Positions 1,120-13,473 of a DNA stretch of 13,473 bases are shown here, piece by piece. Numbering within the stretch: position 1 is the stretch's first letter; every line of letters begins with the position of its first letter. Where the stretch lies: positions 1-13,473 of the forward strand of contig LJUI01000064.1 of the NCBI GenBank assembly GCA_001303705.1, written 5' to 3'. Below the pieces are notes generated by a model. That model was not told where the DNA came from and did not search any database. It saw only the letters and a program-made list of their open reading frames with translations. The stretch comes from a candidate division TA06 bacterium SM23_40. GTDB lineage: Bacteria; LJUI01; SM1-40. The translations under genes were made by a program, and so were the position numbers.

Positions 1120-1148
1120 TTGACACCCTGCTCTCGTTATGGTATCTT
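1120..1148 (+). promoter_or_regulatory. Sigma70-like promoter for the propeller gene
   Basis: A perfect -35 hexamer TTGACA (1120-1125), a 17-nt spacer and a -10 hexamer TATCTT (1143-1148, 4 of 6 matches). Transcription would start near 1155 and leave a leader of about 118 nt before ATG 1273. A weaker minus-strand match overlaps it (TTCTCA at 1159-1164, 17 nt, CATAAC at 1136-1141) and could serve the divergent kinase side, but that one is speculative. Confidence 0.6.
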
Positions 1149-1272: not shown

Positions 1273-3051
1273 ATGGAAAAGGCGAATAGACGTAATGGCC
1301 AGCAGGCTGTAGGACGCATCGCGCGATCGAGGGCCCGGGTCGGCCCCGCAGTCTCCTCGAACCGCGCCAACCCCGCAACGCCGGTTTCTCGCCGCGGGCC
1401 CGTGAGCGCCATGGTCTCGATCCCGACAGCAGTGATCTTGCTGACCGTCGTCAGCTGGTGGGCCGTTCCTCCTCGGATCGGCGCCCTCGAGATCACCACC
1501 CTCTGGTCCTATCCAATCGACGGCGGGGTGCTGCCCACCGCTGCAGTAGGGGACCTGGCCGAGGACGAAGGCCTGGAGGTCGTGGTGGGGGGAGCGTGGA
1601 CGGTCTACGCGTTCACCAGTTCCGGATCGGTTCTCTAGACGTATCCCACCGGCAGCAGCTACAACATCGTCTCGCCGCCCGCCGTTGCCGACATCGACGA
1701 CGATGGTGATCTGGAGATCGTCGCCTCAACGGCGGAGCGCGTTTTCGCCCTCGACCACGAGGGCAACGAGAGATGGAGCTTTCCGTTTCTGACCGCGGGC
1801 TCGATCCAGAATACGATCTCAGCTCCGGCAGCGGCCGACCTGGACGATGACAGAAAGCTCGAGATCCTCGTCGGCGAGTACGGCGGCACTCTCCACGTCC
1901 TCGATCCGGAGACAGGGACCGAAGAGTGGAACTTCCCCACCGGGTATATCATTGGCGCCTCGCCGACGATCTCAGATCTGGAGGGCGACGGCTCGCTCGA
2001 GGTGCTGATCCCGAGTTTCGACCGCTATCTCCACTGCCTCGACGCAGAGGGGAATGAGATCTGGAGCTTCTACACGCCGGGTTCGGGCATAACAGGCTGG
2101 ATGATCTCGACGCCGGCGGCGGGCGACGTCCGCGACGACGATAACCTCGAGATCGCCGCCACATCCAACTACCACAGCATCTACCTCCTGGACGCTGAGG
2201 GGGCACCTCTCTGGCAGCACTCTCAGTACGGGTATGCCACGGCCTCGCCGGCGATCGGTGATATCGACGGCCAGGGAGACAGAGAGATCATTGTCGGATA
2301 CGGATCGTACCTCATCGCCCATGACCCGCAGGGAGCCGAGCTCTGGACATTCGATGTGGGAGCCGGGTACGACATCATCTCCTCCCCGGCGCTTGCCGAC
2401 CTGGATGGCGACGGGCAGCTGGAGGCCATCATCGGAGATATCGATGCGGACCAGCCGAATGACCCGACGAGAAAGGCCTGGATCGTCTCCTCGACCGGGG
2501 ACGAACTCTGGTCGATGGAACTGGGCGGGGTACCGGGCGCACCCGTCGTCGCCGACATCAACGACGATGGGCAGATGGAGATCATGATCGGCACTCGCGC
2601 CGGCCACATCTTCTACGTCTTCCAGGCAGACTCGGTCCTCCCCGAGACCGGCCTCGTCGAATGGGGGATGTTCCACCACGATCCCTGGCATACGGGACTT
2701 CATGGGTTCGAGATCACCACGGCACCGGTCGAGGTGACACTCACTCCGGAGTCCACAACCCTCTCCCCCGGGGATACGCTCAAGATCGACGTGGTCCTCT
2801 CGAACAGGACGGCCGAGTGGCAGACGTTCGCCTTCGCCACCGTAGTGAAGCTCCCTAACAATCCCCGTTGTCGGTCTGTTGTGGGCCCCCTCGAGCTCAC
2901 GCTCTTCCCCGAGGCTGTGATGACCGGCCAGCTCTCGCACGAGGTGCCGCTCATAGCGCCGGAAGGCGATTATCAGTACCGAGCGCTTGTCGGCACGTCA
3001 CCCGAGGATATCTGGGACGATGACGAGTTCACGTTCACCGTGGTGCCGTAG
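1273..3051 (+). pseudogene. Secreted beta-propeller (PQQ/FG-GAP-like repeat) protein interrupted by in-frame TAG
   Basis: A 592-codon frame is open from ATG 1273 to TAG 3051 except for a TAG at 1636-1638 (codon 122). ATG 1273 has GAGGTG 7 nt upstream; ATG 1411, just before the hydrophobic segment (residues about 47-65), is the alternative start. Eight repeats follow, each with a D-x-(D/G)-x-D/G-x-LE-hydrophobic strand (near residues 94, 140, 190, 235, 285, 330, 376, 428), and each closes with Trp: residues 78, 168, 219, 264, 314, 358, 413, 464. The TAG falls at 122, where the next Trp of the series should be, so TGG to TAG is the simplest reading. Residues about 477-592 form a C-terminal Ig-like domain with PESTTLSPGDTLKI. 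No sorting domain is seen. Without suppression, the product is a 121-aa stub; the first ATG/GTG/TTG after the stop is GTG 2002 (residues 244-592). The rest is undecayed, so this is either a very recent mutation or a sequence error. Confidence 0.78.
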
Positions 3052-10620: not shown

Positions 10621-11961
10621 CTACAGTCTTTCCTTTACGACTGAACACATCCTTGAGGCTTCCTCTTCTTCAGGAGCCTCAGCGATTATCCGGACGATCG
10701 GCTCGGTGCCCGAGACACGAATATGGACCCACCTATTCTCCCACATCACCTTGACGCCATCCGTCAGATCGTAACTGCCATCGGGGAACGCGCTCCGCGC
10801 GATGTCGGTGAGCTCATCCTGTGTAGCCGACGTCGCTCGAGCCGATTCCTTCACTATGTGGTAGCGCGGCAGCCCGCCGGCCAGCTCGTCGACCGACACT
10901 CCCTGCCCTGCGAGGGAGGCGAGAACGAACGCCATGCCCACCATCCCGTCTCGTGCATAGTGGAGCTCGGGGAAGATCACCCCCCCATTCCCCTCGCCTC
11001 CGATCACGGCCTTACTATCCCGCATCGCCCTGACGACGTGGGCCTCCCCCACCTTGCTACGTATCACCGGTTGCCCGAACCGCGCCGCGATATCGTCGAT
11101 CGCACGCGAGGTGGAGACGTTAGCCACGACCGGGCCGGGCCGGATCGCGAGCACATAGGAGACGGCGAGCGCGAGCGATGCCTCTTCCCCCAGCGGTTTG
11201 CCGGAATTCGAGACGATCGAAAGCCGATCCCCGTCGGCATCGGTCGCGAACCCCACATCCGCCTGCACCTTCCTGACCGCCTGAGAGAGCTCGGAGAGAT
11301 TGCGGGGCACCGGCTCCGGGTCGCGCGGGAACAAACCACTGGGCTCGCAATTGAGTTCCACGACAGCGCACCCCAGCGATCTGAGCAGCTGAGGAAAGGC
11401 GATGCTGGCACCGCCGTTGCAGCAATCGATGGCGACTCCGTATTGCCTCTCGCGGATGCGATCGACGTCGATCACCGAGAGGCCGAGCACTCTCTCTATA
11501 TGCCGATCGACTGCACTTCTGTCGGCGGTGATCGATCCGATATCGCCCCAGCCAACCCTTTGTGTCGTGCCGGCCCGGTACAGGTCGAGAAGACGTGCCC
11601 CCTCACCGGCACTGAGGAATGCCCCTCCCGCACCGACGAACTTCAAGGCGTTCCACTCGACAGGATTGTGGCTCGCCGTGATCGCGACCCCTCCCGATGT
11701 CTCCAGCTCCTCGACCGCAAGCTGAATCGTCGGCGTGGGCACGATCCCGACATCGGTCACGTCGCATCCGGTCGAGACAAGTCCGGCAACGAGCGCATCT
11801 CGCATCATCTGCCCGGATCGACGGCTATCGCGCCCCACTACCACCCGCCCTCCGGCGAGGTATGTCCCGAATGCCGCCCCGAATCGGACGACGACCTCCG
11901 GGGTGAGCCCCTCTCCCACCACGCCCCGCACCCCTGAGACCCCGACAATCAATGATTCCAC
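10621..11961 (-). CDS. glmM: Phosphoglucosamine mutase GlmM (phosphohexomutase superfamily)
   Basis: Interconverts GlcN-6-P and GlcN-1-P. I set the start at GTG 11961 because GGAGG lies 5 nt upstream (446 aa); an in-frame GTG at 11976 would add 5 residues and lacks a site. Numbered from 11961: N-terminal VSGVRGVVGEG (8-18), active-site serine loop TASHNP (95-100, Ser97 is phosphorylated in the family), metal loop DADGDR (241-246), sugar loop GEGNGG (322-327) and phosphate loop RVSGTEP (415-421). The sugar loop differs from the GE(Q/M)SGH of classical bacterial GlmM/PMM and resembles archaeal-type phosphohexomutases, so specificity rests partly on adjacency to glmS (13 nt downstream). A phosphomannomutase/phosphoglucomutase activity is the alternative. 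The gene opens the run glmM-glmS-lipoprotein-selA-selB. Confidence 0.92.
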   Translation of the reverse strand: MESLIVGVSGVRGVVGEGLTPEVVVRFGAAFGTYLAGGRVVVGRDSRRSGQMMRDALVAGLVSTGCDVTDVGIVPTPTIQLAVEELETSGGVAITASHNPVEWNALKFVGAGGAFLSAGEGARLLDLYRAGTTQRVGWGDIGSITADRSAVDRHIERVLGLSVIDVDRIRERQYGVAIDCCNGGASIAFPQLLRSLGCAVVELNCEPSGLFPRDPEPVPRNLSELSQAVRKVQADVGFATDADGDRLSIVSNSGKPLGEEASLALAVSYVLAIRPGPVVANVSTSRAIDDIAARFGQPVIRSKVGEAHVVRAMRDSKAVIGGEGNGGVIFPELHYARDGMVGMAFVLASLAGQGVSVDELAGGLPRYHIVKESARATSATQDELTDIARSAFPDGSYDLTDGVKVMWENRWVHIRVSGTEPIVRIIAEAPEEEEASRMCSVVKERL

Positions 11962-12843: not shown

Positions 12844-13473
12844 TTACCGCAGCAACACCATCCGCCTCGTCTCTCTCGTCTCACCGGCCTCGAGACAACA
12901 GAAGTACACGCCGGAGCCGACCTCCCTCCCCCGGCCGTCGCGGCCATCCCACACCACCTGGTGCGGGCCGGGAGAGAGAGTCCCGGAGACGAGCTCCCGT
13001 ACGAGCGCGCCCCGTATGTCATATACTGCAAGGGAGACCTGCCGATGGTCCGGGATCGCATAGCTGATCGTCGTCGCCCTTCCAAACGGATTCGGGCGGT
13101 TCTGGCTCAGGTAGTGTAATCTCCGACCGGGTTCCACATCATCCCGCCCACCGACCTCCACCCACCCATCTGCATTCGTCTTGATAAGATAGACATCATC
13201 GTTGCCTGCCCCGAACGACTCGGTGAAGCCTGTGACTATGTACCCCCCATCGGCCGTCGGCGCGACAGAATGGCCCGAGTCCCATTCCAAACCGCCGTAG
13301 GTCCGCGTCCAGACCGTGTCCCCCGCTGCGTCTGTCTTGATGAGATAGACGTCATAATACCCCGCGCCGAAGGAGGTGGTCATTCCCGCGATGATATACC
13401 CCCCGGCCCCCGCCGCGACCGAATAGCCCCAGTCCGAGCCCGGGCCGCCGTAAGTCCGCGTCCAGACCGTGTC
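12844..13473 (-). CDS. Secreted repeat protein with C-terminal Por/FlgD-like sorting domain, 5' end beyond window
   Basis: The last 209 residues of a larger exported protein; the reading frame is open through the window edge. Two tandem repeats of 51 and about 52 residues are visible (DTVWTRTYGG ... GYIIAG ... SFGAGYYDVYLIKTDAAG, then DTVWTRTYGG ... GGYIVTG ... SFGAGNDDVYLIKTNADG), of the kind that build beta-propellers in FCB-group surface proteins. Visible residues about 121-209 are a C-terminal sorting/FlgD-Ig-like domain: YLSQNRPNPFGRATTISYAI, VSLAVYDIRGALVRELV, HQVVWDGRDGRGREVGSGVY, and the terminal MVLLR. Such domains are type IX secretion signals where that system exists; here the secretion route is an inference. 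FCCL replaces the usual FYRL-like strand, giving two adjacent Cys. Domain calls are firm; function is unknown. Confidence 0.9.
   Translation of the reverse strand, partial: DTVWTRTYGGPGSDWGYSVAAGAGGYIIAGMTTSFGAGYYDVYLIKTDAAGDTVWTRTYGGLEWDSGHSVAPTADGGYIVTGFTESFGAGNDDVYLIKTNADGWVEVGGRDDVEPGRRLHYLSQNRPNPFGRATTISYAIPDHRQVSLAVYDIRGALVRELVSGTLSPGPHQVVWDGRDGRGREVGSGVYFCCLEAGETRETRRMVLLR
13291..13473. repeat. 153-bp tandem coding repeat at the window edge
   Basis: The segments ending at 13320 and 13473 (about 27 nt, encoding DTVWTRTYGG on the minus strand) differ at a single base (taggtccgc versus taagtccgc) and lie exactly 153 bp (51 codons) apart. They mark the boundary of the protein repeat unit. 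The downstream copy (13194 to about 13338 region) is one codon longer. The array probably continues outside the window. Confidence 0.75.

Follow-up and report, generated by a model that had tools for sequence, protein, structure and literature searches.

The locus considered here raises the question of whether an in-frame TAG within a gene for a secreted propeller protein marks a broken or misread gene, the end of one gene before another, or a codon that candidate division TA06 bacterium SM23_40 reads as an amino acid. The window, that is the whole stretch of DNA analysed (13,473 nucleotides of contig LJUI01000064.1), contains the following features of this locus.

1120..1148, forward strand: promoter-like site upstream of the propeller gene (TTGACA, 17 nt, TATCTT), a consensus match only
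1402..3051, forward strand: secreted FG-GAP/PQQ-like propeller gene, interrupted, whose product has an Ig-like domain at its C-terminus; in the upstream direction, the open frame reaches as far as an ATG at 1273
1402..1635, forward strand: upstream fragment, with a signal-peptide-like segment and one propeller blade
1636..1638, forward strand: in-frame TAG at a propeller blade boundary that is normally Trp
1639..2709, forward strand: open frame after the TAG, holding the other FG-GAP blades, in which the first ATG, GTG or TTG is a GTG at 2002
2710..3048, forward strand: C-terminal domain of the propeller gene, approximately 110 residues

The interrupted propeller gene

The TAG at 1636-1638 is the sole stop inside the frame that runs from the ATG at 1273 to the terminal stop at 3049-3051, which is likewise TAG. 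In this frame a signal-peptide-like segment is followed by eight FG-GAP/PQQ-like blades and, at the C-terminus, an Ig-like domain; the predicted product is a secreted propeller of the FG-GAP/PQQ class, as judged from repeated blades that score above the cut-off. The PF13517 score is 88.8 bits for the part downstream of the TAG alone and 87.1 bits when the TAG is read as W. In common with the FG-GAP_3/PQQ_2 secreted beta-propellers (PF13517, PF13360), the protein has the blade motif ...LWxYxTG...SPAxxDIDxDGxLEI, a signal-peptide-like segment and tandem blades; it differs from them in having TAG for Trp at one boundary and in carrying a C-terminal domain that is amplified in the genome. A preliminary description had given the gene 592 codons. 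An open frame of that extent does begin at the ATG at 1273, but the dicodon scores reveal a coding signal that fades upstream of approximately 1400. Since the signal begins only there, GTG 1402 or ATG 1411, both of which precede the signal-peptide-like segment, is more likely to be the true start than ATG 1273, and the gene is probably about 546-549 codons long.

The position of the stop follows the repeat pattern of the protein. Tryptophan occurs at residues 78, 168, 219, 264, 314, 358, 413 and 464, with a spacing of 44-55 residues when residue 122 is counted in. Residue 122 is the stop and the only blade boundary without Trp, which is present at all eight of the other boundaries; the preliminary description had placed the TAG at the missing member of this series, and the correspondence is exact. 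In a Trp-anchored blade alignment, the Trp column of the query consists of the seven other aligned blades and the closing boundary at 464. The proposed alignment of homologues at this column gave the same picture, the homologue L010 having Trp in seven of its seven aligned blades. Eight further Trp residues (62, 63, 109, 276, 403, 472, 516 and 581) lie outside the repeat series.

The claim that the frame is intact and repeat-like on both sides of the TAG also holds. The dicodon signal in this frame is positive and the best of the six frames both immediately before and immediately after the stop, and the other 470 codons contain neither a second stop nor a frameshift. Following the TAG, 121 codons pass before the first possible start codon, so that there is no second cistron; together with the unbroken coding signal and blade pattern, this identifies 1273-3051 as one interrupted gene, not two. 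It is accordingly highly improbable that a true gene end at the TAG is followed by a separate gene, even though the part after the TAG, taken by itself, retains matches to propeller families. The upstream piece, in contrast, gave no match of its own in a Pfam scan of 1489-1635, and a split into two genes is absent from the homologues L010, L011, L012, L044, L045 and L046, all of which are single frames. The nearest of the homologues compared is at most 39% identical, and the 59 genomes compared share only the taxonomic domain with the source organism.

UAG as a possible sense codon

Amber suppression or partial reassignment, in which UAG would stand for Trp or some other amino acid and the full propeller would be made, would account for a stop lying exactly at a conserved Trp in a frame that is otherwise intact. 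The preliminary description had listed this reading together with its expected traces, namely a suppressor tRNA, pyl genes and an excess of in-frame TAGs in other conserved genes. None of these traces was found in what was searched. No tRNA with the anticodon CTA (CUA) occurs among the 43 tRNAs found with Rfam and the tRNA-Sec of this genome, the completeness of which is estimated at 89.76%. PylB, the sole pyl gene searched for (pylS, pylC and pylD were not), gave a best match of 23.5 bits against a cut-off of 348.2. The gene for RF1 (prfA) is present, scoring over its cut-off at C23:10729-11481 and lacking only its start at the end of the contig (C23 ends at 11485).

The usage of TAG as a terminator points in the same direction. 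The genome comprises 2.88 Mb in 189 contigs, of which 1.92 Mb (about two thirds) was covered by the scans for stop usage and interrupted frames. TAG terminates 462 of the 1,110 genes of at least 200 amino acids in this portion (about 42%), compared with 547 for TGA and 101 for TAA; it also follows the shared C-terminal domain in 49 of 95 frames, the propeller gene among them. Internal stops are found in one of 72 FG-GAP_3 matches, that one being the propeller gene itself, and in none of 34 ABC_tran (ABC ATPase) matches, leaving no other internal TAG in the conserved families sampled. Because of the tRNA set, RF1, the frequent TAG terminators and the clean conserved domains, a general suppressor or reassignment is unlikely, and amber suppression or partial reassignment as an explanation of this particular TAG is very unlikely.

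The tRNA search also revealed a cluster of four tRNAs (Thr-CGT, Gly-GCC, Pro-CGG and Pro-GGG) at C142:6170-6603 (L169). The same anticodons are found elsewhere in the genome, and the cluster is possibly mobile or foreign.

Editing of the mRNA from A to I would convert UAG to UIG, which is read as UGG, and this single change would restore the Trp and on its own explain why the stop lies at a Trp site. Many bacterial genes are recoded by such editing according to PMC12255301. The same paper, however, states that TadA, the known bacterial A-to-I enzyme, requires a UACG motif, whereas the site in question is CUAGAC (1635-1640), and the main text of that paper, as searched, reports no editing of stop codons. 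No local hairpin was found at the TAG, and editing is exceedingly unlikely here. There is likewise only a very slim chance that UAG is decoded as Trp by any route, whether natural suppression at a low level, a suppressor tRNA outside the sampled set or A-to-I editing, which would yield the full propeller in regulated amounts.

Interrupted frames were sought over the same 1.92 Mb as stops that are flanked by coding signal and not soon followed by a start codon. Most of the raw hits proved to be ghost frames or neighbouring genes sharing a frame. Three TAG candidates remained, namely the propeller gene, C58:3230 and C2:431, and the latter two are not at Trp sites, which argues against suppression. 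The TAG at C58:3230 was created by a 33-bp tandem duplication (C58:3200-3265, L151) in a gene for an Omp28-like/FlgD-Ig protein; thus, ordinary kinds of interrupted frames do occur in this genome. C2:431 is a weaker candidate, with a Pfam match on neither side. Against these three plausible TAG frames there are no convincing TAA or non-Sec TGA interruptions in the portion scanned, an excess of TAG that would appear slight and not significant relative to chance.

UGA sites and the amplified C-terminal domain

Most of the convincing TGA-interrupted frames resemble selenoproteins. More specifically, three paralogous secreted proteins carry an in-frame UGA in the context GW[W/Y]C-UGA (C75:2714, C75:4207 (L157) and C99:4152 (L165)), and each ends in the amplified C-terminal domain. 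A short hairpin lies approximately 18-21 nt after each of these UGA codons, with its stem pairing kept despite substitutions in both arms (GCUCC/GGAGC versus GGUCC/GGACC). Two of the downstream parts were scanned against NCBIfam and matched nothing, and the three proteins are probably an undescribed selenoprotein family, to judge from context and hairpin. The hairpin resembles the one following the UGA of a gene at C35:11227 on the reverse strand (L140; CG-U-HxGECHY), which we take to be MvhD/HdrA-associated. On sequence grounds, several undescribed UGA selenoproteins that are secreted and have a SECIS-like hairpin with covariation appear to be encoded in this genome.

Additional candidate selenoproteins were observed. 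Cys-rich, beta-helix-like secreted proteins with an in-frame UGA are encoded on the reverse strand at C60:10271 (L152), C65:3174 (L155) and C117:11160 (L096), and two of the three have a common UxxCGGGGIRC context and a hairpin after the UGA. Further in-frame UGA candidates, besides the MvhD-like protein of C35:11227, are a thioredoxin-like UxxC protein at C38:4364 on the forward strand (L143) and an EPCG-U-H protein with CxxCH motifs at C13:4352 on the reverse strand (L119).

As in selenocysteine recoding, which is present in this genome, the propeller gene has an in-frame stop in a conserved secreted protein. It differs in that the stop is UAG and has no hairpin (z = -0.38, versus about -0.8 to -2.6 at the UGA sites). 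The earlier remark that the neighbouring selA and selB do not explain a UAG was therefore right: a SECIS-like hairpin accompanies the UGA sites of the genome and is lacking at the TAG.

Within the 1.92 Mb of the genome that was scanned, approximately 96 open frames carry the C-terminal domain of the propeller protein. This domain ends within 25 residues of the stop in 85 of 95 frames and is nearly always at the extreme C-terminus. It has no match in NCBIfam and no convincing match in Pfam, and may serve in sorting or anchoring. Elsewhere in the window, on the reverse strand at 12844-13383, the C-terminal part of another protein matches the T9SS type A sorting domain TIGR04183 at 26.7 bits (cut-off 23).

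Nonsense mutation or base error

The TAG very probably reflects a recent nonsense mutation, whether fixed or still segregating, or else a wrong base in the consensus of the draft assembly, a joint reading that the preliminary description had included. A gene-breaking mutation or base error, not a new reading of the genetic code, explains the observations most simply: a single-base lesion, presumably a G-to-A transition from TGG to TAG, in an otherwise intact secreted propeller gene. The coincidence with Trp is not in need of special explanation, because about half of all transition-derived TAGs would hit Trp. The gene contains 102 codons one substitution from TAG, or 103 when the lost one is added, and TGG makes up 17 of these 103. 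Transitions lead to TAG only from TGG (17 codons) or CAG (14), so that the share of TGG is 17 of 31; blade-boundary Trp codons account for 9 of 103 by any substitution and for 9 of 31 by transitions. Thus, a nonsense transition hitting a Trp is an even bet, and one hitting a blade-boundary Trp has a chance of about 3 in 10.

If the lesion is real, it must be young, since the other 470 codons are intact. RF1 would terminate translation at the TAG, and the resulting one-blade fragment would be about 75 residues long if counted from the probable start and 121 if counted from ATG 1273. The downstream part lacks a nearby start and a signal peptide, and the allele as written would most likely be null.

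Phase variation commonly targets secreted repeat proteins, and the preliminary description had suggested that it might act here by point mutation. Such a reversible point change, or recombination with another copy, is nonetheless scarcely to be expected at this locus: no hypermutable tract is seen at 1636 and only a single copy of the propeller was found in the genome, leaving the suggestion without sequence support.

A nonsense mutation or base error would place the propeller gene beside the nonsense (pseudogene) alleles and draft-MAG base errors of surface-protein genes, which likewise have a single stop, an intact frame and no recoding machinery, with TAG as a normal terminator. It differs from these in that the site affected is that of the repeat's best-conserved residue. 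Both a nonsense allele and a consensus base error are ordinary events. Taken alone, one broken or misread gene among approximately 96 frames with the C-terminal domain carries little weight, and only a demonstration that UAG is decoded would make it important. The TAG of the propeller gene nevertheless provides a useful contrast to the UGA interruptions of the same genome, which do look like genuine recoding.
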